A stretch of DNA of 64,000 nucleotides, from contig NC_092582.1 in assembly GCF_037975245.1 (NCBI RefSeq), positions 7,233,001-7,297,000 of the forward strand, read 5' to 3'. Below the pieces are notes generated by a model. The model was not told where the DNA came from. It worked only from the letters and a program-made list of their open reading frames with translations, and searched no databases. Position 1 is the first letter of the stretch. The number at the start of each line of letters is the position of its first letter. Origin of the DNA: Apostichopus japonicus (Eukaryota; Echinodermata; Holothuroidea; Aspidochirotida; Stichopodidae). The position numbers were made by a program, and so were the translations under genes. Of this stretch, positions 7,616 through 55,565 are shown piece after piece.

Positions 7616-8704
7616 ATGGCTTCTTACACAAACGGTACGTTACTGTGTTCATTATTATTTATACATCATATACCATTACTGATTATGCATTACATAGAAT
7701 GCATACTTTTAAATATCTGAATTGTTAACTTTCTTAAAAATTCATTGAAGATCTAACTTTAACCTATACTTTGACTATTAGAACATGGGACTGAATATGC
7801 TATCGTTATTGCCAGTAAGACTAATAATCAGATCATTTTTCAAAGTCTTTCAGAGTCAGATATAATGATGGGAAATACTATATATTTATAGCAAATTTAA
7901 ATGTTAGTAAATATAATATAGGCCTATACTGTATACTGTATAGGCTAATCATGTAGTCTGGATCTGATACATGAACTGAAATGTCACGGATGCAGAAAGT
8001 CTTAAACTTAATGGATCGAATGATTTATTTTGAAAGATTAGTTGACACTCCGACCCTTGGAAGTTAATATTCAAATCAGGAATCCAGTTTCGTCTGAATA
8101 AATACCGATGTACGTGTAAAACTGTAGTCAGGACAATAATGCGTTGTCAGTCCTTCTTGGTTCTTATATATGTGTTGTGTTCAGTGATGTCGAAGAAATG
8201 CAAAGTCGAGAGGCAAATTTCAAGATTCGTCATGTCAACAATAAAGTTTTCGCCATTTTAGCCTTGAAGATTAAATCTTACATCGTAGTACGGCGATTTT
8301 GTTATGAATGTAACGCAAGGTTTGAATGAGACGTAAAGCTGTTAATTGCTCTATACAACATTTCTTTACGTATTTCTCTCTGAAATATTTCTTATCCTTT
8401 TTGAGGTATTTTTCTTTCTTTCATACTCACATTGAAATAAGTTGAACCCATTATGACGATATGACTTAATTTTTTCTATTTCTTAGGAAACAAGATCTTT
8501 GGACTTTTCTTTCTATTGACGTTTATCATTTTGTCTTCATCGCAAACAACGACAGCGACCAGTCATCGTCTTCGAAGCCTTTACCTACGTATGCTAGTTA
8601 GCTGTAACCAACTGAAAGTATCACGTGATGAACTGTCGTCTGCTATTGTGAGTAATATTATGCAGGTGTAGCAGCACAATTAATTCTTCGGCTAACACAC
8701 CCTG

Positions 8705-8801
<97 letters not shown>

Positions 8802-11763
8802 GATTGTCTTTGTCGTTTAGCTCCATTTCATGAACAAAAGTCTGTTCAAAGTATCTCTTTCGAAATTCGGCTTTAGGAATCACAAATGATTTCGAGTTGT
8901 TTAGCATCATGTTTGATCTCTAGAGTTAGGCAAATATGTCACAAAAACAAAAAGGTGAAAAACGCCTACAGTGGAATTACGACCTTTCTAACCGGTTTCG
9001 AACCTCTGGACATCCCATCAGCGTCCATAGCCTGGTGGTTAGGGTGTCCTCCTATAAAGCGGGAGGCCCGGGATTCGAATCCCGAAGGAAGCTGGAAGTT
9101 TTTTCACTGTTCTGAATTTTCCGATTCACTACGATTTCAATTATAGATATTCCGTCAAGTCATGTACAAATTGTGATTAATCATTCAGACGCCGGAGAAA
9201 ATATTCCGTAATTGTGCTATCAAAGTAAAGGACAGCACATTTGAATATTCAAATTAAAATCATTCATTCCCTTTTCAAAAGAGGTAAATTTCTCTCAATC
9301 CTTTCTGAAGGAATTGCGATATCCTTATCAATATTTTTCAATTAAAAAAAAAAAAACATGCAAGAAGTGGAACGAATGCTTTTTCAAAAATTATTCGGTG
9401 ACGTTGTTACGTTAAAATACCATCTATGTAACAGGTGTACATAAGTTTCCCATTATAGAGTAATGAAACTAAAGAATGGAATTTTTGTGAACAACAGTAA
9501 AAGTCAAAAACAAGCAGTTTTCTATTTTGTATCTATCTATATACCAGTGCCCGCAGTCAACGGAACAATTACTTTGAGTACAATAAGCTTAAATTCTTTC
9601 GTCTCTTGTTCGGTTCCATTGGATGCGTGAATACAGAGTTTTTATTACGTCTATTCATGTAAAACTGCCCATGACCTTTCGATAAACTCATAACGTCATA
9701 TTTCAAAATGACGTCAAACTACTATAGTAAATGTTGCTATCGATGGTGGATGCACGTATCTAAACATATGTTGCACGAAACCATATGTACTTCAGGGGTA
9801 GAGGAGTGGATGTGAAAGTGGGGTCGTGGAAGCAGCCCACCACCCCTTGCATGTCTAGGGACAATATGGGTAAAAATAAGATTAAATGCTTTCAAATTCA
9901 AGGCGTGAAAAATGTGCATTCTGGGGGATATCTAGGCTAAAATTAGGTCTGAAAGAAAGGTTTTGCTTTTGACTCTTTATATGTGGTTGAGCAAGGGGTG
10001 TGGGACCCCCACCCTTTCTGAACTTATCACTGATTACTGACCATGAAGTTGTATATTTTTACTACGCAGACTCAAACACGTGATGTAAGTGGAGTAATTC
10101 ATCATTCCTCTGTCGATTCTATTTCTGGTTTAAATGCCCACCTCGGTGACGTCAGCGTGTTTGATCAAGAAGAGGTAAATATTGAATTGACATTCAAATT
10201 GTGACAATGAATTTGTTTAACCCTATATATTGAACTGTTATCGCGAACTATTTTTGGGGGGAGAAAACACTGAAATAAATTAATAGATCTAGTTTGTCGT
10301 CAAAGTAGACTAACGGTAGATCAACTGCTCGTGTGAACGAAATTTAAGTCTAACACAATTTTTCAAATTTAGGACACTTCAGCTAATAATACACACCAAG
10401 GTTATGCTACTACAACGCTTCGCACTGGGCTACGACACAGGGTTAGGCTGATGGCGATGTACATATACGTCAATGGTAGGCAATCACAACGCGAAGAACT
10501 GGCAACTTCAGCTCAACATGTAAGCAAAGCAGATATTACAATACCTGATAGGCCAAACGTAGGCTTGTCAGCCAGTACATGTCAATGGGAGACAACGTCA
10601 CTTGTATCTATCAAATACAGCTTAGTGTTTAAATAGTATTGCTTCAACACTTGAAAGACTATACCAACGGTTGAGCCAATACGTCTGTCAGAGGACTCGT
10701 TAACCCTTTTAAAGAGTTTTTGGTCATCTGTAGACTCTTTACTCTTCCCTCTTTCTCGTCAATTCAACATTGGTGACTTCACTATCTTTATTGTTTTTGC
10801 CTTCTAGATTGGTAATATTCCAGATCTGCTGATCAACCACTTGACGTACCTTAAACTGACTGAGGGCGCTCTCAGACTATATCAACAAGACGAGTTAGTC
10901 CTCAAGATTGTCGATGATTCCCAGACGACATATGAACATCAACTAGAGACAATCATCAAAAACGTTGTAAATATCAGGAAAACAATCAATATCATTGTGA
11001 GTATAGTTTTTTTTTATATTATAAGTAGACTTAAAAATGAAGGCCAAGTATCATATTATTCATCGGATCTTAATTAAGCATTTACCCGAATATACGATTT
11101 TTCCAACAACAACTACGGAACTGCTTTTTTTTTTTAAATATATAAATATATATTTACTATCAATCTATCATGTTTGAAGCATTCAGTTTATTAAAATGGT
11201 TGATTTGAAGGAACTGGATGCATCCTTAGTTTCAGTTAAATATATATTTTACCAACTTCCAGAGTGTGCAGGTGCATGTGGCATTATCTATGGTTTCAGA
11301 ACATTTGCAAATTTGATGGCTGAATTTACTTTACAATAAATTATTTGTCCTTCGCGAGAAAAATCCCAATAAGATTGAAAACAACAAACATAATATTCTA
11401 TAATTTGAAAATATGATGAATAATGTGAATACTTCTGTTACTTTAGCGAAGAATATAGAACCTTTCACACATATACAAGAAATCACAACACATGCAATAG
11501 GCCACGTTGTAATAACTGTAAATGCTTGTAATATTGTTTCAACATTTGGTATCATAACTGTCGACTTCCTAATCCAATATTTCGTTCAGATCCAAATCTT
11601 CGGACGTACCTTTGACTCTGGATCCGTACAAGAGGTGACCTTTGACGCATGTGACATCACTTCCACGACCTGCATAACAAGACGAGGCTTATACATACTA
11701 CAAGAGTTCGACTATTACTTGAGAATAGCAAGACGGAATTTTGTTACTATGGCTTCGTCTTAG
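7616..11763 (+). CDS. Helical cytokine-like secreted protein, copy 1 (six exons)
   Basis: Exons: 7616-7634, 8487-8647, 10070-10174, 10373-10519, 10808-10996, 11590-11763. Every junction has GT/AG; intron phases are 1,0,0,0,0; the product is 264 residues. Residues 8-27 form a signal peptide whose hydrophobic core begins in exon 2. Helical stretches are about 32-60 (helix A), 110-140, 148-171, 184-207 and 234-258. The last ([17 protein letters not shown]) resembles helix D of CNTF/IL-6-type cytokines. Cysteines are C46, C228 and C235; N100 (NNT) is a sequon. The 19-nt first coding exon with phase-1 intron, then phase-0 introns, is the known pattern of long-chain class-I cytokines. Expected role: extracellular ligand of a gp130/Domeless-type receptor (inference). 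The FxxK site-III motif of LIF/CNTF is not visible. The exon model is firm; the family call is moderate. Alternatives are another four-helix secreted factor or a lineage-specific protein. Confidence 0.7.
7914..7950. repeat. Conserved inverted repeat in intron 1
   Basis: GCCTATAC, an 8-bp spacer, then GTATAGGC, in intron 1 of the plus gene. The repeat is present in all four units. A role is unknown. Confidence 0.5.
8703..8799. repeat. (TA)n microsatellite in intron 2, unit 1
   Basis: Nearly pure TA dinucleotide repeat of about 95 bp in intron 2 of the plus gene. It accounts for the apparent (IY)n ORF on the minus strand. Present in units 1 and 2 only. Confidence 0.95.
9021..9093 (+). repeat. 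tRNA-derived SINE head, unit 1
   Basis: It has an A-box-like TAGCCTGGTGGTTAGG and a B box GGATTCGAATCC at tRNA spacing, followed by an unrelated tail. It lies in intron 2 of the plus gene. Unit 2 has a diverged copy at the same place. Best read as a SINE, not a working tRNA. Confidence 0.7.
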
Positions 11764-13146: not shown

Positions 13147-14305
13147 TTAATATTGAAACAATTCTGACTTGGTGTTAGAGAACACCATTGTGATCATACA
13201 AGGCATTAATCTACTTCTATCCACCCAACCTTCCCCCATTTCTGGAGTACTGTCGTTCTTAAGTTCAACGTAGCTATAGATAAAACCTTGTAAAGACCCA
13301 ATCATGTCAACCTCTTTGTAAGAAACCGTAAAGCACCCCCCAACCCCCAACCCCATTTGTGTTACAAGATTTGTGGGAATCATACACTCAACATGTTTGA
13401 AGGCAAAAGCAGCTACCTGAAAATAATTTTGTACATCTCTCTACATAAAACTAAACTCGGCATGTAAACATAAGGCACAAGGTTAATTCGATTCATAACA
13501 ATTTCCATTGTGGACAAAAAATAAAAAATTGTTTCGTCTTGAAACAATGATGAACGAGTAACAAAGAATAACTTCTGTGTTTTTTGCTTCACAGTTCATT
13601 ACTATACTGTACTAATATCCCTTTAAATAATCGATCCCCACATTCAAACTTCAATTCTACTGCTCCACACGAAGTCATTTTCCTCATTCAGACATTTAAT
13701 TGTCTGCAATTAAACGTTTGCCAAAAACGCTAGAAGTAGCCAGGAAGGTTAGAACCCACATGAAATTTAACTTTGAACAAGTTTAGCAGCTGCAACCATC
13801 ATTAACTATTGGGCCTTATCTTCAGACTCTCTTGATTATAATATTATTGGTGAAGCTTTTCTATCGTGGAGAGAGTTGCTTGAAGTCGAGTAATATAGCC
13901 GACGAAAGATGACAGGGCTGCTTTATAGGTGGTCATATTCTCTGGCTTACTCTTCAGCCCAAATTCATCACTTTGAACAAGTCTGATAGCGTCCTCCATC
14001 ATGAATGTGAATTCGGCATGTTTCACTATCAAGTCCTGAATATCATCAATCTGAAAAAAAAATTAATGCAAAATGTTAACCTTTAACCTTTTACAGTGAG
14101 TGCTGAATTCTCGAAATAGTGCTAATGGCCACCCCATGGCATGTATTCATCGATCGTTTGAGGTTTCATTCGAAATTTGATGACATATGAACAACGTGAA
14201 GTAGTGATTACTCACTGAGATGGTATGATTTTGTTTTATACTGTTCACTGGCATACCTTTAGTACGGGCAGTATGAATATTCATAAAGGTGAAGAACTGT
14301 TTGTA
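13147..14305 (-). CDS. Antisense cytokine-like paralogue, unit 1 (3' exons)
   Basis: Minus-strand exons in order: 14305-14216 (30 codons, acceptor aacag, donor GTGAGT), 14050-13844 (68 codons plus TAA, acceptor after a T-rich tract) and a possible last exon 13416-13147 (89 codons; alternative acceptor at 13311). The middle exon aligns without gaps to all 63 codons of exon 5 of the plus gene (20 identical, including QxDE, LK and TTY), with the same phase. Where that exon has its GT donor, this one reads GA, and translation stops five codons later. The last segment, with R..L and F spacing like exon 6, is then unreachable by that donor. The product would lack helix D. The 5' exons were not found; they should lie above 14305. 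It could be a decaying gene or a truncated form with a new C-terminus. Confidence 0.45.
14216..14218 (-). promoter_or_regulatory. Intact exon-4 donor of the antisense paralogue, unit 1
   Basis: Exon 14305-14216 ends in TCA followed by GTGAGT on the minus strand (14215-14210), a consensus donor in phase 0, matching the end of exon 4 in the plus gene. The intron to the next exon is 165 bp. Confidence 0.5.
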
Positions 14306-16222
14306 CTGTTAGTAAGAGTGCCTTCAATCACGATATGGAAGATTGGCATAGAGTGGTAATAGTATTAGGACATTGTCCTTACTGGCTGGTCGTGGGTGGG
14401 GGGTGGGGTAAGGGTGATATTTTTGTAAATCATGGGTCGATTCTGCAGTACAGTTTTAAAAGTTAGTCTGTCATCCTGGAAGTAAACTTTTAGCAAATTC
14501 GTTAATTTATGAGACGTTTCATTTTTTTTTGGGACGTGTAGCACTTGACTATATTTTACTTAATATATTATTTAAAAGTGTGCTTTAGTTTTCAAGAGGG
14601 GAAAATGGTCATGTTGTGGGTGGGGGGGGGTGTTGCTGTTCATAATCCGACCAAGACAACCAGCAGTATTTAATTACCTCTGCTTGACGAAAGACTACGT
14701 AATAGTTAAAGAAATTGTTCTCCCCGAGACAGTGAGAACTGAAGAGGGCAGCACGACAATGTTCTCGGAAACGCTGAGATATCTGAGAAAATACTTTCTA
14801 AGAAAAGTCACCCATGAAAGAAATTAACAGCTCGGCCATGTGACTCTATGCCAACTAACTACGACCCCTCTATTGAAATATAGCAATAGAGTGTATTGTG
14901 GATTTCTCTTCTGTTGGAGTGGAGGAGGACGTCCGGAAAGAATCCTACCATGTACAGGAACACGTTCAGCCATTACAACAGAAGAATATTGCGGAACTTT
15001 TGCGAAGATTAAATAGTTAAATTATCAAGGAATATAAGCACGTCCGGTCATTGCAAAAAATTGTATTTTTCCCCGCCTCTCCTTTGACCATTATGCAACA
15101 GATCTCTATTCAAACAGAAACACACACACACAGATAGGCCATGGTCACACACTGCCCTCCTCTTCAAGTTTTTCTTGTCCTAGAAATTATGAAGTAAGTG
15201 TGTTCTCCTGTTGAACAATAAGTAAATACTAACAATGCATCCATGCACTGTACAAATACTAAATACAGTAGATCAACTGAATGGGCTACATGGTGTGACT
15301 GTTCCAGTGATGCAGTCATTGTAATTGTGCACATTTTTTCTACAAATAAATGAACATAAATATAGTTTCATCTTTTAAGCTGCAAAGAGGCTTGCAGTCA
15401 CTTGCAGGATTACAATCTAAATTAAAATCATATGCAAACAGATTGATGATTAGTTTTGTGAGCCATAAACTACTTTAAGGACTTCATGTTTGAAATAAAC
15501 CCCCTCCCAAAAGAAAATTTGTCATGCGCAATAAATGTTAGTCCAAACTTCAAGTATAAATTGCATCCAAACTTAAATGTTTTCAGATCTTGACCTCTGT
15601 CAACTATTTTACCTTTTCTTTAGAGACTATTGCTGGCCTTAGACCTCCATAGCAAACAAGATATTTTTTTAATACTCAAACTGTCATATTACATGTGAAG
15701 TTGATAAACAAAGTACTTCTTGATCTATCATGTCTACAAGCCAATGCATCACATAGACAAAAATATATAGCATTACCATCACATATGCTTCCTTTACGTT
15801 TGGCAGGGAATTAATATCAAAACTGATATTCATCAGCACATAGTATACATCTACTGATGGTGACGACTTAAAATACTGCATCAACATAAGACGGATATTC
15901 ACCATCTTCATTTACCTGCGAACCTCTGCTTGATTGACACATATGCAATTAGGGCATCACTTAATATATTGATATTTACAGCATGAATTGATATCCTAGC
16001 AATATTGCAGCTAGTACATATTATAACTTGATATCATGAAACATTCATATCCCACCAATCCTATCATAGCTCCTTACCCACAGCTCCTATTAAACGCATG
16101 TACAACCCATGCAAACCATATACATATAGGTACAGATTCTGAAGTAAGGAAAATATAGTAGCATACCTTATACTGCACCAAGTTGTGAAACTTGTATTCA
16201 GTGCTAGCTTTTCCACTGCTCA

Positions 16223-18330: not shown

Positions 18331-18432
18331 CACGATAGTTATCGTGAAATTCATAACATGTGTGATTAAGTTATAACACAGCACGATAACTTTCGTGGAT
18401 CACCATTACCAAGAACCACGATAGTTATCGTG
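18331..18432. repeat. Triple inverted-repeat cluster, unit 2
   Basis: Same three sites and spacing as in unit 1. The middle copy (18382-18397) has one arm changed (TTTCGTG). Confidence 0.65.
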
Positions 18433-21875: not shown

Positions 21876-22969
21876 ATGGCTTCTTACACAAACGGTACGT
21901 TACTGTGTTCATTATTATTTATACATCATATACCATTACTGATTATGCATTACATAGAATGCATACTTTTAAATATCTGAATTGTTAACTTTCTTAAAAA
22001 TTCATTGAAGATCTAACTTTAACCTATACTTTGAATATTAGAACATGGGACTGAATTTGCTATCGTTATTGCCAGTAAGACTAATAATCAGATCATTTTT
22101 CAAAGTCTTTCAGAGTCAGATATAATGATGGGAAATACTATATATTTATAGCAAATTTAAATGTTAGTAAATATAATATAGGCCTATACTGTATACTGTA
22201 TAGGCTAATCATGCAGTCTGGATCTGATACATGAACTGAAATGTCACGGATGCAGAAAGTCTTAAACTTAATGGATCGAATGATTTATTTTGAAAGATTA
22301 ATTGACACTCCGACCCTTGGAAGTTAATATTCAAATCAGGAATCCAGTTTCGTCTGAAAAAATAGCGGTGTACGTGTAAAACTGTAGTCAGGACAATAAT
22401 GCGTTGTCAGTCCTTCTTGGTTGTTATATATGTGTTGTATTCAGTGATGTCGAAGAAATGCAAAGTCGAGAGGCAAATTTTAAGCATCTTCATGTCAACA
22501 AGAAAGTTTTCGCCATTTTAGCCTTGAAGTACACGGATTAAATCTTACATCGTAGTACGGCGATTTTGTTATGAATGTAACGCAAGGTTTGAAGGAGACG
22601 TAAAGCTGTTAATTGCTCTATACAACATTTCTTTACGTATTTCTTTCTGAAATATTTCTTATCCTTTTGAGGTATTTTTCTTTCTTTCATACTCACATTG
22701 ATATAAGTTGAACCCATTGTGACGATATGACTTAATTTTTCCATTTCTTAGGAAACAAGATCTTTGGACTTTTCTTTCTATTGGCGTTTATCATTTTGTC
22801 TTCATCGCAAACAACGACAGCGACCAGTCATCGTCTTCGAAGCCTTTACCTACGTATGCTAGTTAGCTGTAACCAACTGAAAGTATCACGTGATGAACTC
22901 TCGTCTGCTATTGTGAGTAATATTATGCAGGTGTAGCAGCACAATTAATTCTTCGGCTAACACACCCTG

Positions 22970-23060
<91 letters not shown>

Positions 23061-26000
23061 GATTGTCTTTGTCGTTTAGCTCCATTTCATGAACAAAAGT
23101 CTGTTCAAAGTATCTCTTTCGAAATCCGGCTTTAGGAATCACAAATGATTTCGAGTTGTTTAGCATCGTGTTTGATCTCTAGGGTTAGGCAAATATGTCA
23201 CCAAAACAAAAAGGTGAAAAACGCCTACAGTGGAATTACGACCTTTTTAACCGGTTTCGAATCTCTGGACATCCCATCAGCGTCCATAGCCTAGCGGTTA
23301 GGGTATCCTCCTATTAAGTGAGAGGTCCGGGTTCGAATCCGGTGGAAGCTGGAAGTTTTTTTCACTATTCTGAATTTTCCGACTCACTACGATTTCAATT
23401 ATATATATTCCGTCAAGTCATGTACAAATTGGGATTAACCATTCAGACGCCGGAGAAAATATTCCGTTATTGTCCCATCAAAGTAAAGGACAGCACATTT
23501 GAATATTCAAATTAAAATCATTCATTCCCTTTCAAAAGAGGTAAATTTCTCTCGATCCTTTCTTTAGAAATTGCGATATCCTTATCAATATTTTTCAATT
23601 GAAAAAAAACATGCAAGAAGTGGAACGAATACTTTTCCAAGAAGTATTCGGTGACGTTGTTACGTTAAAATACCATCTATGTAATAGGTGTACATAAGTT
23701 TCCCATTATAGAGTAATGAAACTCAAGAATGGAATTTTTGTGAACAACAGTAAAAGTCAAAAACAAGCACTTATCTATTTTGTATCTATCTATATACCAG
23801 TGCCCGCAGTCGACGGAACAATTACTTTGAGTACAATAAGTTAAATTCTTTCGTTTCTTGTTCGGTTCCGTTGGATGCGCGAATACAGAGTTTTTATTAC
23901 GTCTATTCATGCAAAACTGCCCATGACCTTTCGATAAACTCATAACGTCATATTTCAAAATGACGTCAAACTACTATAGTAAATGCTTCTATCGATGGTG
24001 GATGCACGTATCTAAACATATGTTGCACGAAACCATGTACTTCAGAGGTAGAGGAGTGGATGTGAAAGTGGGGTCGTGGAAGCAGCCCACCACCCCTTTC
24101 ATGTCTAGCAACATTATGGGTAAAAATAAGATGAAATGCTATCAAATTAATGGCGTGGAAACTTTGCATTCTGAGGGATATCTAGGCTAAAATTAGGTCT
24201 GAAAGAATGGTTTTGCTTGTTACTCTTTATATGTGGTTGAGAAAGTGGTGTGACCCCACCCTCTGCCCTCGATTCCTCCACCTTTTTGACTCAGCGACTT
24301 TATTATACTTCAATCGCTATATCTCAATAATTCATTGAGATAGTGTATTTATCAGTGCATTTCTTGACCATAATTACCTTTTTAAGAAAATTAAACCAAG
24401 ATAGAGTCTCGGGGGGGGGGGGGGGGGTTGAGAAGGGGGAAACGAAAATCATCTCACGATTTAACTGATACTCTCAACAACAGTATCATTCCATCGAGAC
24501 TGTGACGGTGTGACCCGTTGTCTGTCGCCTGAAATTGTTAATTGTTGAATACTTAATATGCAGAATATACAAATGCACATGCCTCGTTCACAAACTGTTG
24601 AAATACTTGAATTACATTTCTGAACTTATCCTTTCGGTGAGATTACTGACCATGAAGTTTTGTATTTTTTTACTACGCAGACTCAAACACGTGATGTAAG
24701 TGGAGTAATTCATCATTCCTCTGTCGATTCTATTTCTGGTTTAAATGCCCACCTCGGTGACGTCAGCGTGTTTGATCAAGAAGAGGTAAATATTGAATTG
24801 ACATTCAAATTGTGACAATGAATTTGTTTAACCCTATATATTGAACTGTTATCGCGAACTATTTTTGGGGGGAGAAAACACTGAAATAAATTAATAGATC
24901 TAGTTTGTCGTCAAAGTAGACTAACGGTAGATCAACTGCTCATGTGAACGAAATTTAAGTCTAACACAATTTTTCAAATTTAGAACACTTCAGCTAATAA
25001 TACACACCAAGGTTATGCTACTACAACGCTTGGCACTGGGCTACGACACAGGGTTAGGCTGATGGCGATGTACATATACGTCAATGGTAGGCAATCACAA
25101 CGCGAAGAACTGGCAACTTCAGCTCAACATGTAAGCAAAGCAGATATTGCAATACCTAATAGGCCAAACGTAGGCTTGTCAGCCAGTACATGTCAATGGG
25201 AGACAACGTCACTTGTATCTATCAAATACAGCTTAGTGTTTAAATAATATTGCTTCAACACTTGAAAGACTATACCAACGGTTGAGCCAATGCGTCTGTC
25301 AGAGACCTCGTTAACCCTTTTAAAGAGTTTTTGGTCATCTGTAGACTCTTTACTCTTCCCTCTTCCCAGGGGCGTAGCGAGCGGGGGGTGTGGGGGGGGG
25401 TGTCACACCCCCCCAATAATTTGGTCGCTGTCGGCAAATTTTGGGTCTGTCGGCAAAAGGTGAAAAGGTGAAGAGAGCGGAAGGGGAAGAAAGAAGGAAA
25501 GCTGAATAGAGAAAAGGAGAACGGGAGCTTCTTCCGTGCCAAACTTGACTTAAAATATGCACCAGATTGCATCTAAGGACGTTTCAAAACTAAAAATTTT
25601 CCAAAGGGGAGGGGTAGACCCCCTACCCTTAGACCCCTCCCCCATTTCAGTCACCACTTCCAGATCCGTCGGCAAATCAAATTTGACTTAAAATATGCAC
25701 CAGATTGCATCTAAGGACGTTTCAAAACTTAAAACTTTCCAAAGGGGAGGGGGACACCCCCTCCCCTTAGACCCCTCCCCCATTTCATTCACCACTTCCA
25801 GATCCGTCGGAAAATCAAATTTGACTTAGAATATACACCAGATTGCATCTAAGGACGTTTCAAAACTAAAAACTTTCCAAAGGGGAGGGGGACACCCCCT
25901 CCCCTTAGACCCCTCCCCCATTTCAGTCGCCACTTCCAGATCCGTCGGCAAATCAAAAATCTCCACACCCCCCAACAAAAACCCCTTCGCTACGCCCCTG

Positions 26001-27643
26001 CCTCTTCCTCGTCATCTCAATATTGCTGACTTCACTATCTTTCATTGTTTTTGCCTTCTAGATTGGTAATATTCCAGATCTGCTGATCAACCACTTGACG
26101 TTCCTTAAACTGACCGAGGGCGCTCTTAGACTATATCAACAAGACGAGTTAGTCCTCAAGATTGTCGATGATTCCCAGACGACATATGAACGTCAACTAG
26201 AGACAATCATCAAAAACGTTGTAAATATCAGGAAAACAATCAATATCATTGTGAGTATAGTTATGTTTTATATTATAAGTAGACTTGAGGCAAACATTTT
26301 TTTTCAACGGATCTTAATTAAGCATTTACCCGAATATACGATTTCCCAGCAACAAACGGAACTGCTCTATTTTTAATATATAAATATATATTTTTATCAA
26401 TCTATCATGTTTGGAGCATTCAGTTTTTTTCAGATATAAATGCAAATTCATTCCATATTCAAATTTCTAATGAACTAAGTAAATTTAATAACTGGTTTTC
26501 TGCCAATAAACTATCACTTAATATTGGCAAAACTAATTATATTGCGTTTAATACTTCCAGAAATTTTAGCTGGGATAAAGATATCACCATGGGTGGTATA
26601 ATTCTAAAACAAGTTTATACTACTAAGTTTTTAGGTGTATATATTGATTATAAGCTTTCGTGGCATGAGCACATTTCTACAGTATGCAGGAAAGCAGCGA
26701 AAAGCGTTGGGATTTTATCAAAGTTGAAATTTCTCCTACGAGAGCGCATATTAAAGACTCTCTACCAAACTCTGGTCGTTCCACACATCTCATATTGTTC
26801 AATTATCTGGTCTGGCACGCCAGAAACCAATCTTCATCCTCTTATTATTCTCCAAAAGAAAGCCATGCGCCACATTTCACGTGTTGCACCTCGTTAACAC
26901 ACAAATCAACTTTTCAAGAATCTCAATTTATTAAAAGTTACCGACATTTTTCGTGTAAATCTTGCCACGTTTGCATATAAGGCATGGAATGGCTTATTGC
27001 CAAACACATTTCATGATTTTTTAACTAGTAACAGTGTGATACATCACCACAACACACGGAATGCTGATAATGCACATTACTTTTCTTATAAAACATCAGT
27101 TGGGAGGCTTCGTCTTAGAAATCGTGCAATAAAGACATAGAATTCCATAACAGAGAGCTTCAAAACCAAAGTATCCAGTAAAATATTCAAAAAGCATCTG
27201 ACCAAAGACGTTATATCCAGATATTAATAAGTCACCCATTCATTTGCACGATAACAAATCATTATCGTAAATATTATCACCATATATAGTATTCATTGAT
27301 TGTCGAATTATTCTATTTTGTATTGTTATGTAAATACTTTTCTTCTTTCCTTTATACAGGGAGTCTTCTACTTTGATAAGCTGTTGTACGCTTTTTGGAA
27401 GACTTCCTTCACACTGTAAATTTACACGTGAAAAACAAATAAATGAATCAAATCAAATATTTCATTCAGATCCAGATATTCGGACGTACCTTTGACTCTG
27501 GATCCGTACAAGAGGTGACCTTTGACGCATGTGACATCACTACCACGACCTGCATAACAAGACGAGGCTTATACATACTACAAGAGTTCGACTATTACTT
27601 GAGAATAGCAAGACGGAATTTTGTTACTATGGCTTCGTCTTAG
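21876..27643 (+). CDS. Helical cytokine-like secreted protein, copy 2 (six exons)
   Basis: Exons: 21876-21894, 22752-22912, 24681-24785, 24984-25130, 26062-26250, 27470-27643, with lengths, phases and splice sites as in copy 1. All exons are open; the product is 264 residues. It is the same protein subtype as copy 1 (FGLFFLL signal core, K50, MASS C-terminus) with a few changes: T to A in the signal core, D96N, Y to F and H to R in exon 5, and S to T in the last exon. Intron 4 carries a hAT miniature element. Intron 5 is mostly replaced by a LINE fragment that ends about 15 bp before the exon-6 acceptor, so splicing of the last exon (helix D) may be altered. Confidence 0.68.
22973..23059. repeat. 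(TA)n microsatellite in intron 2, unit 2
   Basis: TA repeat at the same place as in unit 1, of slightly different length. Confidence 0.95.
23280..23349 (+). repeat. tRNA-derived SINE head, unit 2
   Basis: A better-preserved copy: A box TAGCCTAGCGGTTAGG, B box GGTTCGAATCC, and an acceptor-like pairing of GCGTCCA with TGGAAGC (6 of 7). The anticodon arm does not fold convincingly, so it is scored as a SINE. Confidence 0.7.
24410..24427. repeat. Long poly-G tract
   Basis: Uninterrupted G run in intron 2 of copy 2. Similar G runs of 8-18 occur at matching places across units (for example near 162, 451, 2827, 6091, 12281, 28178), nearly all on the plus strand and variable in length. Confidence 0.9.
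25367..26000. mobile_element. hAT-type miniature element with internal tandem repeats
   Basis: Terminal inverted repeats CAGGGGCGTAGCG / CGCTACGCCCCTG are flanked by the 8-bp target duplication CCTCTTCC (25359-25366 and 26001-26008), the hAT signature. The interior holds three copies of a roughly 139-bp G/C-skewed repeat starting near 25543, 25683 and 25821. No transposase, so non-autonomous. It sits in intron 4 of copy 2 and is absent from the other three units. Confidence 0.85.
26430..27455 (+). mobile_element. 5'-truncated LINE fragment replacing intron 5 of copy 2
   Basis: It encodes the region just after the reverse-transcriptase catalytic motif, through the thumb and C-terminus: NNWFSANKLSLN, then FLGVYIDYKLSWHEHI, then ILKTLYQTLVVPHISYCSIIW. 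In-frame stops at 26895 and further on show it is dead. The 3' end is AATCAAATCAAAT. It replaces about 390 bp of the intron found in unit 1 and stops just short of the exon-6 acceptor. Confidence 0.8.
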
Positions 27644-28996: not shown

Positions 28997-30153
28997 TTAT
29001 TGAAACAATTCTGGCTTGGTGTTAGAGAACATCATTCTGATCATACAAGGCATTAATCCACCCCTATCCACCCAACCTTCTCCCATTTCTGGAGTACTGT
29101 CGTTCTTAAGTTCAACGTAGCTATAGATAAAACCTTGTAAAGACCCAATCATGTCAACATTTTTGTAAGAAACCGTAAAGCACCCCCCCACCCCCTTGTG
29201 TTACAAGATTTGTGGGAATCATACACTCAACATGTTTGGAGGCAAAAGCAGCTACCTGAAAATAATTTTGTACATCTCTCTCCATAAAACTAAACTCGGC
29301 ATGTAAACAGAAGGCACAAGGTTAATTCGATTCAGAACAATCTCCATTGTAGACAAAAAATAAAAAAATTGTTTCGTCTTGAAACAATGATGAACGAGTA
29401 ACAAAGAATAACTTCTGCTCCCGCTCTTTGCTTCACAGTTCATTACTATACTGTACTAATATCCCTTTATGTCAAATAATCGATCCCACATTCAAACTTC
29501 AATTGTACTGCTCCACACGAAATCATTTTCCTGATTCAGACATTTAATTGTCTGCAATTAAACGTTTGCCAAAAACGCTGGAAGTAGCCAGGAAGGTTAG
29601 AACCCACAGGAAATTTAACTTTGAACAATTTTAGCAGCTGCAACCATCATTAACTATTGGGCCTTATCTTCAGACTCTCTTGATTATAATATTATTGGTG
29701 AAACTTTTCTATAGTGGAGAGAGTTGCTTGAAGTCGAGTAATATAGCCGACAAAAGATGACAGGGCTGCTTTATAGGTGGTCATATTCTCTGGCTGACTC
29801 TTCAGCCCAAATTCATCACTTTGAACAAGTCTGATAGCGTCCCCCATCATGAATGTGAATTCGGCATGTTTCACTATCAAGTCCTGAATATCATCAATCT
29901 GAATAAAAAATTAATGCAAAATGTTAGCCTTTAACCTTTTACAGTGAGGGCTGAATTCTCGAAATAGTGCTAATGGCCACCCAATGGCATGTATTCATCG
30001 ATCGTTTGAGGGTTCATTCGAAATTTGATGACATATGAACAACGTGAAGTAGTGATTACTCACTGAGATGGTATGATTTTGTTTTATACTGTTCACTAGC
30101 ATACCGATAGTACGGGCAGTATGAATATTCATAAAGGTGAAGAACTGTTTGTA
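28997..30153 (-). CDS. Antisense cytokine-like paralogue, unit 2 (3' exons)
   Basis: Minus-strand exons 30153-30064 (30 codons, donor GTGAGT) and 29898-29692 (68 codons plus TAA) correspond to those of unit 1. The last exon-like segment (29158-28997) has lost the AG next to its inner acceptor (now AT). Its longer version is frameshifted in the G-rich stretch near 29190. The C-terminus after the 63-codon conserved block is EKFHQ and stop. The likely product lacks helix D. Confidence 0.4.
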
Positions 30154-38970: not shown

Positions 38971-41900
38971 ATGGCTTCTTACACAAACGGTACGTTACTG
39001 TGTTCATTATTATTTATACATCATATACCATTACTGATTATGCATTACATAGAATGCATACTTTTAAATATCTGTATTGTTAACTTTCTTAAAAATTCAT
39101 TGAAGATCTAACTTTAACCTATACTTTGAATATTAGAACATGGGACTGAATTTGCTATCGTTATTGCCAGTAAGACTAATAATCAGATCATTTTTCAAAG
39201 TCTTTCAGAGTCAGATATAATGATGGGAAATACTATATACTTATAGCAAATTTAAATGTTAGTAAATATAATATAGGCCTATACTGTATACTGTATAGGC
39301 TAATAATGCAGTCTGGATCTGATACATGAACTGAAATGTCACGGATGCAGAAAATCTTAAACTTAATGGATCGAATGATTTATTTTGAAAGATTAGTTGA
39401 CACTCCGACCCTTGGAAGTTAATATTCAAATCAGGAATCCAGTTTCGTCTGAATAAATACCGGTGTACGTGTAAAACTGTAGTCAGGACAATAATGCGTC
39501 GTCAGTCCTTCTTGGTTCTTATATATGTGTTGTGTTCAGTGATGTCGAAGAAATGCAAAGTCGAGAGGCAAAATTTCAAGTTTAGCCATGTCAACAATAA
39601 AGTTGTCACTATTTTAGCCTTGAAGTACACGGATTAAATCTTACATCGTAATACGGCGTTTTTTATAAATGTACGCAAGGTTTGATAGTGACATAAAGCT
39701 GTAAATTGCTCTTTACAACATTTCTTTACGTATTTCTTTCGCAAATATTCTCTATCCTTTTGAGGTAGTTTTCTTTCCTTCATACTCACATACGTTCAAG
39801 CCATTATGACAATATGATTTAATTTTGCTTTTTTTTTTGTGCTATTTCTTAGGAAACAAGTTCTTTGGAATTTTCTCTCTATTGGCGTTTATTGCTTTGT
39901 CTTCAACACAAACAACGACAGCGACCAGTCATCGTCTTCGAAGCCTCTACCTACGTATGCTAGTTAGCTGTAACCAACTGCAAGTATCACGTGATGAACT
40001 GTCGTCTGCTATTGTGAGTAATATTATGCAGGTGTAGTAGCACTATTAATTCTTCGGCTAACACACTCTATATAGAATATATATTACTTTGAGCCCAATA
40101 ATACGCTCAATTTGTTTTTGTTTCTTGTTCGGTTCTATGAAACGCTTGGATGCGTGAATACAGAGTTTTAGTTGCGTCTATTCATGTTAAACTGCCCATG
40201 ACCTTTCAATAAACTCATAACGACATATTTGACGTCAAAATGACGTCAAAGTACTATAGTAAATGCTGCTATCGATGGAGGAGGCACGTATCTAAACATA
40301 CGTTGCACGAAACCATATGTAATTCAGGGGCGGATCCAGGATTTTAAGGAGGAGTGGATGTGGAAGTGGGGTCGTGGAAGCAGCCCACCACCCCTTGCAT
40401 GTCTAGGGACAACAGTATGGGTAAAAACAAGATGAAATGCTATCAAACTTGAGACGTGAAAATTGTGCATTCTGAGTGATATCTAGGCTAAAATTAGGTC
40501 TGAAAGAAAGGTTTTGCTTGTAACTCTTTATGTGTGGTGGAAAAAGTGGTGTGACCCCACCCTCTCCCTCTCATCCTCCCCCTTTCTGACTCTGAGACTT
40601 GTTAATACTTCAATCGTTATATCTCAGTAATTCAAAGGGTAATAAATAATCAAACAAATTACGAAGCTGACACTGCGTTTAATTGACATAATTTCCTTTT
40701 TAAGGAAATTAAATTAAGATAGGGTGTCGGGGTGGGGGAGGGTGAGAAGGGGTAAACGAAAATCAAACGATTTAACTGATACTCTCAACAACAGTATCAT
40801 TCCATTGAGACTGTGACGGTGTGACCGGTTGTCTGTCGCCAGAAATTGTTAATTGTTGAAGACTTAATATGAAGAATGTACATGCACATGCTTCGTTCCC
40901 AAACTGTTGAATTATTAGAATTACATTTCTGAACTTATCCCTTTAGTTTGATTACTGACCATGAAGTTGTATATTTTTACTACGCAGACTCAAACACGTG
41001 ATGTAAGTGGAGTAATTCATCATTCCTCTGTCGATTCTATTTCTGGTTTGGATGCACACCTTGGTGACGTCAGCGTTTTTGATCAAGAAGAGGTAATCAT
41101 TAAATTGACTTCAAATTGTGACAATGAATTTGTTTAACCCTATATATTGAACTGTTATCGCGAACTATTGTTTGTGGAGAAAACACTGAGATAAATTAAT
41201 AGATTTATAGTAACCTATGTCGTGAAAGTAAGCTAACGGTAGATCAACTCCTCGTGTGAACGAAAGTAGGCTAACACAATTTTTTTTCAAATGTAGGACG
41301 CTTCAGCTAATCATACACACCAAGGTTATGCTACTACAAAGCTTCATTCTGGGCTGCTAAACAGGTTTAGGCTGCTGGCGATGTACATATACGTCAATAG
41401 TAGGCAATCACAACGCGAAGAACTGGCAACTTCAGCTCAACATGTAAGCAAAGCAGATATTACAATACCTGATAGGCCAAACGTAGGCTTGTCAGCCCAT
41501 ACATGTCAATGGGAGACAACGTTACTTGTATCTATCAAATACAGCTTAGTGTTTAAATAGTATTGCTTCAACACTTGAAAGACTATACCAACGGTTGAGA
41601 CCTCGTTAATCCTTTTAAAGAGTTTTTGGTCATCTGTAGACCCTTTACTCTTCCCTCTTCCTCGTCATCTCAACATTGCTGACTTCACTATCTTTCATTG
41701 TTTTTGCCTTCTAGATTGGTAATATTCCAGATCTGCTGATCAACCACTTGACGTACCTTAAACTGACTGAGGGCGCTCTCAGACTATATCAACAAGACGA
41801 GTTAGTCCTCAAGATTGTCGATGATTCCCTGACGACATATGAACATCAACTAGAGACAATCATCAAAAACGTTGTAAATATCAGGAAAACAATCAATATC

Positions 41901-42439
41901 ATTGTGAGTATATTTATGTTTCATTTTTATAAGTAGACTTAAAAATGAAGGCCAAATATCATTTTATTCAACTGATCTTAATTAAGCATTTACCCGAATA
42001 TACGATTTTCCAGCTACAATTACGAAACTGCTTTCCCCCAAAAGATTGAAAAAGACAAACATAATGTTCTATAATTTGAAAACATGATGAATAATGTGTA
42101 TACTTCTGTTACTTTAGCGAAGAATTTAGAACCATGAACACATATACAAGAAATCACAACACATGGAATAGGCCACGTTGCTTTGAAATAACTGTAAATT
42201 CTTGTAATATTGTTTCAGTATTTATTCTCATAACTGTCAACTTCCTAATCCAATATTTCATTCAGATCCAAATATTCGGACGTACCTTTGACTCTGGATC
42301 CGTACAAGAGGTGACCTTTGACGCATGTGACATAACTACCACGACCTGCATAACAAGACGAGGCTTATACATACTACAAGAGTTCGACTATTACTTGAGA
42401 ATAGCAAGACGGAATTTTGTTACTTTGTCTTCGTCTTAG
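38971..42439 (+). CDS. Helical cytokine-like secreted protein, copy 3 (six exons)
   Basis: Exons: 38971-38989, 39853-40013, 40988-41092, 41297-41443, 41715-41903, 42266-42439. All GT/AG sites are present, phases are 1,0,0,0,0, and the product is 264 residues, all open. It is a second protein subtype shared with copy 4: signal core FFGIFSLLAFIALSS, Q50 in place of K50, D82 in place of N82, LLNRFRLLAMYIY in place of [13 protein letters not shown] in exon 4, and C-terminus LSSS. The sequon at N100 (NHT), all three cysteines and the helix-D sequence are unchanged. Intron 2 is shorter than in copies 1 and 2. Function as for copy 1. Confidence 0.7.
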
Positions 42440-43769: not shown

Positions 43770-44920
43770 TTATTGAAACAATTCTGGCTTGGTGTTAGAG
43801 AACATCATTCTGATCATACAAGGCATTAATCCACCCCTATCCACCCAACCTTCTCCCATTTCTGAAGTACTGTCGTTCTTAAGTTCAACGTAGCTATAGA
43901 TAAAACCTTGTAAAGACCCAATCATGTCAACATTTTTGTAAGAAACCGTAAAGCACCCCCCCACCCCCTTGTGTTACAAGATTTGTGGGAATCATACACT
44001 CAACATGTTTGGAGGCAAAAGCAGCTACCTGAAAATAATTTTGTACATCTCTCTCCATAAAACTAAACTCGGCATGTAAACAGAAGGCACAAGGTTAATT
44101 CGATTCAGAACAATCTCCATTGTAGACAAAAAATAAAAAATGGTTTCGTCTTGAAACAATGATGAACGAGTAACAAAGAATAACTTCTGTGCTCTTTGCT
44201 TCACAGTTCATTACTATACTGTACTAATATCCCTTTATGTCAAATAATCGATCCCACATTCAAACTTCAATTCTACTGCTCCACACGAAATCATTTTCCT
44301 CATTCAGACATTTAATTGTCTGCAAGTAAACGTTTGCCAAAAACGCTAGAAGTAGCCAGGAAGGTTAGAACCCACAGGAAATTTAACTTTGAACAATTTT
44401 AGCAGCTGCAACCATCATTAACTATTGGGCCTTATCTTCAGACTCTCTTGATTATAATATTATTGGTGAAACTTTTCTATAGTGGAGAGAGTTGCTTGAA
44501 GTCGAGTAATATAGCCGACAAAAGATGACAGGGCTGCTTTATAGGTGGTCATATTCTCTGGCTGACTCTTCAGCCCAAATTCATCACTTTGAACAAGTCT
44601 GATAGCGTCCTCCATCATGAATGTGAATTCGGCATGTTTCACTATCAAGTCCTGAATATCATCAATCTGAATAAAAAAATAATGCAAAATGTTAACCTTT
44701 AACCTTTTACAGTGAGGGCTGAATTCTCGAAATAGTGCTAATGGCCACCCAATGGCATGTATTCATCGATCGTTTGAGGGTTCATTCGAAATTTGATGAC
44801 ATATGAACAACGTGAAGTAGTGATTACTCACTGAGATGGTATGATTTTGTTTATACTGTTCACTAGCATACCGATAGTACGGGCAGTATGAATATTCATA
44901 AAGGTGAAGAACTGTTTGTA
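43770..44920 (-). pseudogene. Antisense cytokine-like paralogue, unit 3 (frameshifted)
   Basis: Exon 44920-44832 is 89 nt because one T of a TTTT run is missing, giving a frameshift relative to the 90-nt exon of units 1 and 2. Exon 44666-44460 (68 codons plus stop) is intact. The last exon-like segment 43931-43770 has lost its inner acceptor (AT for AG), as in unit 2. Confidence 0.5.
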
Positions 44921-46534
44921 CTGTTAGTAAGAGTGCCTTAAATCAATTGAAGAACGGCATAAGGTGTATTAGCATTAGGACATTGTCCCAACTGGCTGGT
45001 CGTGGGTGTGGGATGGGGTAGGGGTGATATTTTCTAAATCATGGGTCCATTTTTCAGTACAGCTGTCATCCTGGACGTAAAGACTTAGCAAAATCGTAAA
45101 TTTATGGGACGTCTAATTTTCTTTGGACATGTAGCAATTATTGCACTTCATTATATTTTAGTTATAATATTTGAAAAGTGTGCTTTAGTTTTCAGGAGGA
45201 AAGAGTGGTTGTGTAGTGGATGGGAAAGGGGGGGGGGGTGTTGCTGCTCATAATCCGATCAAGACAACCAGCAGTATGTGATTACCTCTGCTTGACGAAA
45301 GACTACGTAATAGTTAAAGAAATTTTTCTTCCCCGAGACAGTGAGAACTGAAGAGGGCAACACGACAATGTTCTCGTTTTGGAAACGCTGAGTTATCTGA
45401 GAAAATACTTTTTAAGAAAAGTCACCCAGGAAAGAAATTAACAGCTCGGTCATGTGACTCTATACCAACTAAGTACCACACACCTCGATTGAAATGTAGC
45501 ACTAGGGTGTATTGTGGATTCCTCTTCCGTTGGAGTGGGGGGGGGGGGAGGACGTCCGGAAAGAAAATACAGTAAATCAACTGAATGGGCTACATGGTGT
45601 GACTGTTCCAGTGATGCAGTCATTGTAATTGTGCACATTTTTTCTACAAATAAATGACTAAATGGACATAAATATAGTTTCATCTTTTAAACTGCAAAGA
45701 GGCTTGCAGTCACTTGCAGGATTACAATCTAAATTAAAATCATAGGCAAACAGATTGATTATCAGTTTTGTGAGCCATAAACTACTTTAATGACTTCATG
45801 TTTTAAATAAACCCCCTCCCAAAAGAAGATTTGTCATGCGCAATAAATGTTAGTCCAAACTTCAAGTATAAATTGCATCCAAACTTTAATATTTTCAGAT
45901 CTTGACCTCTGTCAACTATTTTAACTTTTCTTTAGAGACTATTGCTGGCCTTAGACCTCCATAGAAAACAAGATATTTTTTTAATACTCAAACTGTCATA
46001 TTACATGTGAAGTTGATAAACAAAGTACTTCTTGATCTATCATGTCTACAAGCCAATGCATCACATAGACAAAAATATATAGCATTACCATCACATATGC
46101 TTCCTTTGCGTTTGGCAGGGAATAAATATCAAAACTGATATTCATCAGCACATAGTATACATCTACTGATGGTGACGACTTAAAATACTGCATCAACATA
46201 AGACGGATATTCACCATCTTCATTTACCTGCGAACCTGTGCTTGATTGACACATATGCAATTAGGGCATCACTTAATATATTGATATTTACAGCATGAAT
46301 TGATATCCTAGCAATATTGCCGCTAGTACATATTATAACTTGATATCATGAAACATTCATATCCCACCTATCCTATCATAGCTCCTTACCCACAGCTCCT
46401 GTACAACGCATGTACAACCCATGCAAACCATAAACATAAAGGTACAGATTCTGAAGTAAGGAAAATATAGTAGCATACCTTATACTGCACCAAGTTGTGA
46501 AACTTGTATTCAGTGCTAGCTTTTCCACTGCTCA

Positions 46535-48612: not shown

Positions 48613-48714
48613 CACGATAGTTATCGTGAAATTCATAACATGTGTGATGAAGTTATAACACAGCACGATAACTTTCGTGGATCACCATTACCAAGAACCA
48701 CGATAGTTATCGTG
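48613..48714. repeat. Triple inverted-repeat cluster, unit 4
   Basis: Same arrangement. The middle copy carries the same TTTCGTG change as unit 2, one of the marks linking the left parts of units 2 and 4. Confidence 0.65.
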
Positions 48715-49087: not shown

Positions 49088-49630
49088 ACAATCAATCAAT
49101 TCAATTCAATTTTTTCAATTCATAAGACTTTATTTCAATCTCTTGTATTAAAGTATGCAACTTTGACAATAGACGTGGGTAAATTTACAAGAGAACAAGA
49201 GATTGAGGAGTGCCAACAAGAAGCTCTGCAGAGCTTGTTTACGTTGACACCCCTTTACAAATAAAACATAGAAAGAAAGCTTAAGTATACAGAGAAAACA
49301 GAACAAAGATGGCAAAGAAAGGAAATACAAAATCAATGATAGCTTGATATAAGATACTCTTTAAGACGTTTTTTGAAGGTGTTCAAAGTTTTACAACCAG
49401 TAATGGTAGTAGGGAAGGATTTCCAAAGTTTTACGCCGACATAACGAATACCAAGTTGTGAAGACCTAAGTCTAAAGTAAGGAACAGTCAAGTGATTTGG
49501 CGCACGGTTAGGATAAGGATCGTTACGTAACTGAAAATAGTTACGAAAAGTCGACGGAGCATTATCATGTAACCAATTGAAAATAAAAATACCAACATTG
49601 TAACGATTTATATCATAGATACTAAATCGC
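49088..49630 (-). mobile_element. Non-LTR retrotransposon tail, unit 4
   Basis: Same inherited fragment as in unit 1. Confidence 0.75.
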
Positions 49631-52094: not shown

Positions 52095-55000
52095 ATGGCT
52101 TCTTACACAAACGGTACGTTACTGTGTTCATTATTATTTATACATCATATACCATTACTGATTATGCATTACATAGAATGCATACTTTTAAATATCTGTA
52201 TTGTTAACTTTCTTAAAAATTCATTGAAGATCTAACTTTAACCTATACTTTGAATATTAGAACATGGGACTGAATTTGCTATCGTTATTGCCAGTAAGAC
52301 TAATAATCAGATCATTTTTCAAAGTCTTTCAGAGTCAGATATAATGATGGGAAATACTATATATTTATAGCAAATTTAAATGTTAGTAAATATAATATAG
52401 GCCTATACTGTATACTGTATAGGCTAATCATGTAGTCTGGATCTGATACATGAACTGAAATGTCACGGATGCAGAAAGTCTTAAACTTAATGGATCGAAT
52501 GATTTATTTTGAAAGATTAGTTGACACTCCGACCCTTGGAAGTTAATATTCAAATCAGGAATCCAGTTTCGTCTGAATAAATACCGGTGTTCGTGTAAAA
52601 CTGTAGTCAGGACAATAATGCGTCGTCAGTCCTTCTTGGTTCTTATATATGTGTTATGGTTAGTGATGTCGAAGAAATGCAAAGTCGAGAGGCAAAATTT
52701 CAAGATTCGCCATGTCAACAATAAAGTTGTCACTATTTTAGCCTTGAAGTACACGGATTAAATCTTACATCGTAATACGGCGTTTTTTATGAATGTACGC
52801 AAGGTTTGATTGTGACATAAAGCTGTAAATTGCTCTTTACAACATTTCTTTACGTATTTCTTTCTCAAATATTTCTCTATCCTTTTGAGGTATATTTCTT
52901 TCCTTCATACTCACATACGTTCAACCCATTATGACAATATGATTTAATTTTGCTTTTTTTTTTTTTGCTATTTCTTAGGAAACAAGTTCTTTGGAATTTT
53001 CTCTCTATTGGCGTTTATTGCTTTGTCTTCATCACAAACAACGACAGCGACCAGTCATCGTCTTCGAAGCCTCTACCTACGTATGCTAGTTAGCTGTAAC
53101 CAACTGCAAGTATCACGTGATGAACTGTCGTCTGCTATTGTGAGTAATATTATGCAGGTGTAGTAGCACTATTAATTCTTCGGCTAACACACTCTATATA
53201 GAATATATATTACTTTGAGCACAATAATACGCTCAACTTGTTTTTGTATCTTGTTCGGTTCTATGAAACGCTTGGATGCGTGAATACAGAGTTTTAGTTG
53301 CGTCTATTCATGTTAAACTTCCCATGACCTTTCAATAAACTCATAACGACATATTTGACGTCAAAATGACGTCAAACTACTATAGTAAATGCTGCTATCG
53401 ATGGAGGATGCACGTATCTAAACATACGTTGTACGAAACCATATGTACTTCAGAGGTAGAGGAGTGGATGTGAAAGTGGGGTCGTGGAAGCAACCCACCA
53501 CCCCTTGCATGTCTTGGGACAACAATATGGGTAAAAATAAGATGAAATGCTATCAAACTTGAGACGTGAAAATTGTGCATTCTGAGGGATCTCGGTAAAA
53601 ATTAGGTTTGAAAGAAAGGTTTTGCTTGTAACTCTTTATGTGTGGTCGAGAAAGTGGTGTGACCCCATCCTCTCCCTCTCATCCTCCCCCTTTCTGACTT
53701 TGAGACTTTTTAGTACTTCAATCGTTATATCTCAGTAATTCAAAGGGTAATAAATAATCAAGCAAATTACGAAGCTGACACTGCATATAATTGACATAAT
53801 TTCCTTTTTAAGTAAATTAAATTAAGATAGGGTCTCGGGGGTGGGGGAGGGTGAGAAGGAGTAAACGAAAATCAAGCGATTTAACTGATACTCTCAACAA
53901 CAGTATCATTCCATTGAGCCTGTGACGGTGTGACCGGTTGTCTGTCGCCAGAAATTGTTAATTGTTGAAGACTTAATATGAAGAATGTACATGCACATGC
54001 TTCGTTCCCAAACTGTTGAATTACTAGAATTACATTTCTGAACTTATCCCTTTAGTGTGATTACTGACCATGAAGTTGTATATTTTTACTACGCAGACTC
54101 AAACACGTGATGTAAGTGGAGTAATTCATCATTCCTCTGTCGATTCTATTTCTGGTTTGGATGCACACCTTGGTGACGTCAGCGTTTTTGATCAAGAAGA
54201 GGTAATCATTAAATTGACTTCAAATTGTGACAATGAATTTGTTTAACCCTATATATTGAACTGTTATCGCGAACTGTTGTTTGTGGAGAAAACACTGAGA
54301 TAAATTAATAGATTTATAGTAACCTATGTCGTGAAAGTAAGCTAACGGTAGATCAACTCCTCGTGTGAACGAAAGTAGGCTAACACAATTTTTTTTCAAA
54401 TGTAGGACACTTCAGCTAATCATACACACCAAGGTTATGCTACTACAAAGCTTCACACTGGGCTGCTAAACAGGTTTAGGCTGTTGGCGATGTACATATA
54501 CGTCAATGGTAGGCAATCACAACGCGAAGAACTGGCAACTTCAGCTCAAGATTAAAGCAAAACAGATATTACAATACCTGATAGGCCAAACGTAGGCTTG
54601 TCAGCCAGTACATGTCAATGGGAGACAACGGCACTTGTATCTATCAAATACAGCTTAGTGTTTAAATAGTATTGCTTCAACACTTGAAAGACTATACCAA
54701 CGGTTGGGCCAATACGTCTGTCAGAGACCTCGTTAACCTTTTTAAAGAGTTTTTGGTCATCTGTAGACTCTTTACTCTTCCCTCTTCCTCGTCATCTCAA
54801 CATTGCTGAATTCACTATCTTTCATTGTTTTTGCCTTCTAGATTGGTAATATTCCAGATCTGCTGATCAACCACTTGACGTACCTTAAACTGACCGAGGG
54901 CGCTCTTAGACTATATCAACAAGACGAGTTAGTCCTCAAGATTGTCGATGATTCCCTGACGACATATGAACATCAACTAGAGACAATCATCAAAAACGTT

Positions 55001-55565
55001 GTAAATATCAGGAAAACAATCAATATCACTGTGAGTATATTTATATTTCATATTATAAGTAGACTTAAAAATGAAGGCCAAGTATCATATTATTCAACGG
55101 ATCTTAATTAAGCATTTACCCGAATATACGATTTTCCAGCTACAATTACGGAACTGCTTTTCCCTAAAAGATTGAAAATGACAAACATAATGTTCTATAA
55201 TTTGAAAATATGATGAATAATGTTTATACATCTGTTACTTTAGCGAAGAATATAGAACCTTTCACACATATACAAGAAATCACAACACATGGAATAGGCC
55301 ACGTTGCTTTGAAATAACTGTAAATGCTTGTAATATTGTTTCAACATTTAGTCTCATAACTGTCGACATCCTAATCCAATATTTCGTTCAGATCCAAATT
55401 TTCGGACGTACCTTTGACTCTGGATCCGTACAAGAGGTGACCTTTGACGCATGTGACATCACTACCACGACCTGCATAACAAGACGAGGCTTATACATAC
55501 TACAAGAGTTCGACTATTACTTGAGAATAGCAAGACGGAATTTTGTTACTTTGTCTTCGTCTTAG
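52095..55565 (+). pseudogene. Helical cytokine-like protein, copy 4, broken exon-4 donor
   Basis: Exons: 52095-52113, 52979-53139, 54097-54201, 54406-54552, 54842-55030, 55392-55565. Promoter and all other splice sites are kept, but the exon-4 end, CAACAT then GTAAGC elsewhere, reads CAAGAT then TAAAGC here. The donor GT is gone and the next codon is TAA (54553-54555). Read-through would give a 144-residue protein with signal peptide, helix A and the exon-4 helix only. Exons 5 and 6 are otherwise intact (last codon of exon 5 is T instead of I). It may be a pseudogene, a truncated secreted form, or rescued by a cryptic donor or by skipping exon 4 (which would keep frame). Confidence 0.65.

Follow-up and report, generated by a model that had tools for sequence, protein, structure and literature searches.

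The 64,000-nucleotide (nt) stretch analysed here, C22:7233001-7297000 of the Apostichopus japonicus genome (hereafter, the window), carries a tandemly repeated gene, gene A, which raises the question of whether an echinoderm encodes ligands of the long-chain class I cytokine type. A previous reading based on the letters alone (the sequence-only reading) described gene A as a six-exon gene of what looks like an invertebrate genome, encoding a secreted, mostly helical protein of 264 residues, and proposed that it may be a locally expanded class I long-chain cytokine. The assignment to an invertebrate is supported. Our analysis suggests that gene A and two diverged relatives, genes C and D, likely form a family of secreted four-helix long-chain class I cytokines (IL-6/CNTF/G-CSF type), although this is not proven. 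The proposal is favoured by the gene layout, the order of helices and loops, a weak resemblance to helix D of CNTF, and the presence of receptor, JAK-type, and STAT exons, whereas no sequence search identified a cytokine.

The window holds four near-identical tandem copies of gene A (A1–A4), spaced 13–17 kb apart. When six exons were joined, each of the four copies gave exactly 264 codons and a stop codon, with no internal stop and with intron phases of 1,0,0,0,0. The ATG of A1 lies at position 7616 and the stop codon of A4 ends at position 55565, both agreeing to the base with the span given in the sequence-only reading, whose count of four copies was confirmed. The splice sites are canonical across A1–A4, with the sole exception of the exon 4 donor of A4, where the GT is gone. 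The ratio of nonsynonymous to synonymous substitution rates (dN/dS) over all six exons was 0.31–0.64 in the six pairs of window copies. Intron 5 of copy A2 also contains an open frame (26322-26897, plus strand), which, together with a minus-strand frame at 4618-4932 and its copies at 35976-36290 and 49333-49647, looks like a piece of a non-long-terminal-repeat (non-LTR) retrotransposon; two of these frames were scanned, with no Pfam match up to an E-value (E) of 0.1.

The array runs on leftward of the window, with at least nine gene A copies at C22:7175405-7288562. Exons 2, 3, 5, and 6 are intact in nine of nine copies, exon 1 having been checked in the four window copies only. A search of the whole genome (671,581,487 bases, 35 contigs) gave 54 matches for gene A, 24 for gene D, and 23 for gene C, all of which fell within C22:7.149-7.313 Mb except for two D matches (E 0.9 and 1.4); no match to A, C, or D at E <0.8 was found outside the C22 cluster in this search. 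Genes C and D lie on the minus strand and flank the array. In both, exons 2, 3, 5, and 6 follow one another in order and are bounded by AG acceptors and GT donors (the exon 5 donor of gene C, for example, reads ATG|gtacgt), and their proteins share 39% (C) and 29% (D) identity with the 215-residue form of A1. Exons 3, 5, and 6 of these genes were located by search (exon 3 of D with a gene B query), and exon 2 of both was recognised by eye. Because the exons of gene A recur in at least nine tandem copies and also, with their order unchanged, in two diverged genes encoded on the opposite strand, they are not products of chance, and the local expansion proposed earlier was borne out. Interspersed with the A copies, on the minus strand, is a fourth member, gene B, which is probably a relic: its exon-5-like piece has lost the donor in all three copies inside the window, and exons 2, 4, and 6 were sought in gene B and none was found.

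By inspection, a short start is followed by a hydrophobic N-terminal run in A1–A4, and exon 2 of C and D opens with runs of the same kind. This stretch is fit for a signal peptide, so the gene A product is predicted to be secreted. The mature chain is about 184–190 residues long, and a helical-moment scan of the A/C/D alignment gave helix-like zones A, B, C, and D at mature positions of about 1–20, 61–97, 100–126, and 154–184. Between them lie a Gly/Pro-richer stretch (about 34–60), a short break (near 93–100), and a non-helical stretch (about 127–150). Of the scanning windows, 15% were above the shuffled 95% line, but the maximum was not above the shuffled maximum, so that the profile is not statistically decisive. 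The hydrophobic start and the helix-like zones support the earlier description of a secreted, mostly helical product. Zones A, B, C, and D map to exons 2, 5, 5, and 6, respectively, with a long loop in exon 3 and a long CD loop in exon 6; this long-short-long loop order is what an up-up-down-down bundle needs, and the mature protein may adopt that fold. The four-row alignment has invariant columns at two cysteines of the loop preceding zone D and at R, G, L, Q, E, and F within the zone-D motif; the L, L, and Y of zone A are likewise invariant in the whole-protein alignment once exon 2 of C and D is included.

The gene layout points in the same direction. Without exon 4, the exons are 19 (gene A only), 152–164, 105–111, 186–189, and 171–174 nt long and the intron phases are 1-0-0-0. 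Zone A, the AB loop, zones B and C, and the CD loop with zone D occupy the second to fifth of five exons in A, C, and D, where for C and D exon 1 was not located and the phase-1 first intron was read from the length of exon 2. The EPO, IL-6, and G-CSF genes have a comparable five-exon, 1-0-0-0 layout, and in vertebrate long-chain cytokine genes the first coding exon is small and the first intron is in phase 1. As described in the available part of PMC6389648, the G-CSF genes of carp have five exons and four introns, like those of human and mouse.

The sequence-only reading had suggested that a gp130/Domeless-type receptor be sought in the same genome, and exons of a class I receptor gene of the gp130/LIFR type were indeed found on the plus strand at C2:4454586-4466484. 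The Cys-x-Trp exon of this gene (ELPAPVTNVECQSRDMLAFWCTWQPGEDSLLDTQYRLQYRG) was found through two weak Pfam matches at one place; LIFR_D4 is over its cut-off there, and the IL6Ra-bind and EpoR_lig-bind matches are below theirs. The LIFR_D4 search of the genome reported this place alone. When the LIFR_D4 exon was compared with PDB, 46 of the 51 rows at E ≤1 were class I cytokine receptors, the rest being four ETV6 constructs and one cellulosome protein. Approximately 7.6 kb downstream lies a WSNWS exon, which had no Pfam match up to E 1 but for which eight of nine PDB rows were class I receptors (the best being the thrombopoietin receptor at E 0.003, the others at E 0.11–0.96). An upstream immunoglobulin (Ig) exon is over three Ig cut-offs and resembles Lep_receptor_Ig below the cut-off. 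Further frames between and downstream of these exons look by eye like receptor-homology and fibronectin halves, with a single fn3 match, below its cut-off.

Downstream signalling components were also detected. FERM F1 and F2 models, which we assume to be of the JAK type, are over their cut-offs in one frame at C12:27409742, and three collinear STAT_bind exons occur at C4:25122506-25128002 (E 0.007–1.3, none over the cut-off). Class I receptor, JAK-type FERM, and STAT_bind exons are therefore all present in the same genome as gene A. The class I receptor gene is the strongest new support for the cytokine assignment, and the gp130/LIFR-like gene on C2 would be the natural candidate receptor for the gene A product. 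Other weak receptor leads were at C11:11997856 (E 0.13) and C9:19095237 (IL6Ra-bind, E 1.8). A further place, C2:10129050 (EpoR_lig-bind, E 0.04), was dropped as a receptor; it is a large frame with zinc-finger sequence, presumably Gli-like. Class I receptors have also been described in Ciona (PMC1963337, available part).

These lines of evidence must be set against the results of the sequence searches, none of which linked the product to a known cytokine. Among the Pfam-A matches listed for A1, A3, a gene B exon, and the four-member alignment, no cytokine family was over its curated cut-off, and neither Pfam nor PDB yielded a cytokine in single-sequence or profile searches. The profile comparison with cytokine families that the sequence-only reading had proposed gave only a 14-column match by hhalign to helix D of CNTF (E 0.16), which is not significant. 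Because no Pfam cytokine family was matched over its cut-off, the gene A family is assigned to none of those that exist. The same lack of a significant match would fit a secreted helical protein that is specific to this lineage, serves some other function (antimicrobial defence, lipid binding, or reproduction), and came to look like a cytokine by convergence, and rapid tandem expansion of secreted proteins is generally common in marine invertebrates. However, the five-exon 1-0-0-0 layout, with the helix pairs split as in long-chain cytokines, the long-short-long loop order, and the class I receptor gene in the genome all argue against convergence, which we consider unlikely.

A second alternative concerns the product itself and is compatible with a cytokine: the six-exon, 264-residue form might be the real product, with exon 4 giving a fifth helix. 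The join is open in all four window copies, and the exon 4 donor is kept in A1–A3. Nevertheless, an open frame and a GT donor occur together in only three of the nine copies of exon 4 (A1, A2, and A3); the donor is gone from the remaining six, two of which also have an in-exon stop. No convincing exon 4 was seen in B, C, or D in a search that tried only phase-0 pieces of 24–80 codons, and a 125-nt exon in gene C, read by eye as a candidate, was rejected, as its length would disrupt the frame. Exon 4 differs between the two copy lineages by 10 replacement changes and 1–2 silent changes (proportions of replacement and silent differences, pN 0.090 and pS 0.028–0.056), albeit in small counts, and it lacks the silent-change excess of the other mature exons, which show 6–8 replacement and 7–8 silent changes between the same lineages (pN 0.014–0.019; pS 0.054–0.062), although in the A3–A4 pair the exon 4 pN (0.036) is below the pS (0.057). 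The signal stretch of gene A changes fast as well (pN 0.07–0.10). We therefore regard the 264-residue form as quite unlikely. Given the decay of exon 4 in six of the nine copies and the lack of a counterpart found in the relatives, the conserved product is more likely the five-exon, 215-residue form; thus, the open join of the sequence-only reading stood in all four copies, but its inclusion of exon 4 in the product is probably over-long.

There is also a likeness between exon 4 and the stretch of gene A exon 2 that carries helix A (10373-10519 versus 8487-8647; local score 37, reached by 0.3% of 2000 shuffles), and local scoring showed no such likeness to the corresponding stretch in C or D. 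This likeness suggests that exon 4 is a duplicated helix-A exon that is now optional or decaying, being lost or skipped, with 215 residues as the working product.

The remaining possibility is a class II helical cytokine, that is, a relative of IL-10 and the interferons that uses a class II receptor. The IL-10 family and type I interferons are, like the gene A product, helical bundles encoded by several exons, and the last-helix sequence of IL-10 is similar. No class II receptor was recognised in one Tissue_fac search of the genome, which reported two places: the place over the cut-off, on C23, fits fn3 better and lies in a fibronectin repeat frame that we take to be titin-like, and the other, C12:322927, has E 0.22. 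Because the first intron is in phase 1 in gene A (and, judging from exon 2 length, in C and D), whereas the fish type I interferon genes described in the available part of PMC4929537 have four introns, all in phase 0, the type I interferon branch is disfavoured, and we consider a class II cytokine very unlikely.

Features of the window. Positions are those of the window; gene B is probably a relic.
Feature	Position	Strand	Exons or content	Evidence
Copy A1	7616..11763	+	7616-7634, 8487-8647, 10070-10174, (10373-10519, optional exon 4), 10808-10996, 11590-11763	264-codon join; canonical splice sites
Copy A2	21876..27643	+	21876-21894, 22752-22912, 24681-24785, (24984-25130, exon 4), 26062-26250, 27470-27643	264-codon join
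Copy A3	38971..42439	+	38971-38989, 39853-40013, 40988-41092, (41297-41443, exon 4), 41715-41903, 42266-42439	264-codon join
Copy A4	52095..55565	+	52095-52113, 52979-53139, 54097-54201, (54406-54552, exon 4, donor GT lost), 54842-55030, 55392-55565	264 codons only if the lost donor is ignored; 215 residues without exon 4
Exon 4 of A1	10373..10519	+	Extra helix-like exon, similar to the helix-A part of exon 2	Frame and donor intact in 3/9 copies
Exon 5 of A1	10808..10996	+	Helix-like zones B and C, short turn between	Helical-moment windows; aligned in A, B, C, and D
Exon 6 of A1	11590..11763	+	CD loop with two invariant cysteines, then zone D	Invariant columns; 14-column helix-D match with CNTF, not significant
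Gene B exon-5-like piece, first copy	13859..14050	-		31.7% identity to A exon 5, E 1.8e-9; donor lost (reads GAAAAG)
Gene B exon-5-like piece, second copy	29707..29898	-		Donor lost
Gene B exon-5-like piece, third copy	44475..44666	-		Donor lost
Gene B exon-3-like piece	220..330	-		38.9% identity to gene D exon 3, E 4.6e-5
Gene B diverged exon-3-like piece	14678..14782	-		56.8% to the B exon-3 query
Gene B exon-3-like piece	30519..30629	-		
Gene B exon-3-like piece	45286..45396	-		

Two other elements were observed in the window. A 105-codon open frame occurs on the minus strand in all four units (3649-3966, 18082-18399, 35007-35324, and 48364-48681); one copy was scanned, with no Pfam match up to E 0.1. 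An inverted repeat of 207 nt (31597-31803 / 62462-62668), 93% complementary and with arms 30.7 kb apart, is probably a dispersed element.

If genes A, C, and D do encode class I cytokines, the secreted ligand would fold as an up-up-down-down four-helix bundle, two faces of which would bring class I receptor chains together, with the gp130/LIFR-like gene on C2 as a candidate. Receptor pairing could then trigger JAK/STAT signalling, possibly in an immune or regenerative role. A survey of 2026 based on sequence searches (PMC13203501) states, in its available part, that IL-6 occurs only in vertebrates and that IL-6-like ligands were not found in most invertebrates, although IL-6-receptor-like genes from an echinoderm, a hemichordate, and a sea squirt are placed close to their vertebrate counterparts in the same survey. 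Among the papers listed in searches on invertebrate class I ligands and receptors, no echinoderm class I ligand came up, which is weak evidence of absence because bioRxiv preprints and most subscription papers were outside the coverage. On balance, we lean toward the view that the gene A family is the missing ligand family of the echinoderm gp130/LIFR-like receptor; IL-6/CNTF/G-CSF-type ligands with a five-exon plan would then predate chordates and have been amplified here to at least nine copies, with exon 4 as the trace of an added second helix-A segment that is being lost. With a candidate ligand alongside receptor, JAK-type, and STAT exons in a single genome, the question of how this cytokine class arose becomes directly testable. 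Furthermore, exon layout, helix order, and receptor presence together offer a route to such ligands where sequence search is blind.

Among known systems, the gene A product is most readily compared with CNTF, CLCF1, IL-6, and G-CSF. Like these, it is predicted to be secreted and has about 180 mature residues; its helical-moment profile suggests four helix-like zones, with the AB and CD loops long and the BC turn short, and its zone-D motif is weakly similar to the helix-D motif of CNTF (WGLKVLQELSQW). The G-CSF genes share the five exons of gene A without exon 4 (PMC6389648, available part). In contrast, there is no detectable sequence homology with any of these four, and gene A differs from vertebrate long-chain cytokines in its LQEF helix-D core, its own CD-loop cysteine pair, its tandem array, and its extra exon 4. 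The Drosophila Upd ligands, which act with Domeless (PMC7378365), provide an invertebrate parallel: as described in the available parts of PMC7378365 and PMC13203501, they are helical ligands with a gp130-like receptor and JAK/STAT downstream, a likeness drawn from description. Because the host of gene A appears to be a deuterostome, its family may represent a branch that is separate from Upd or more vertebrate-like.
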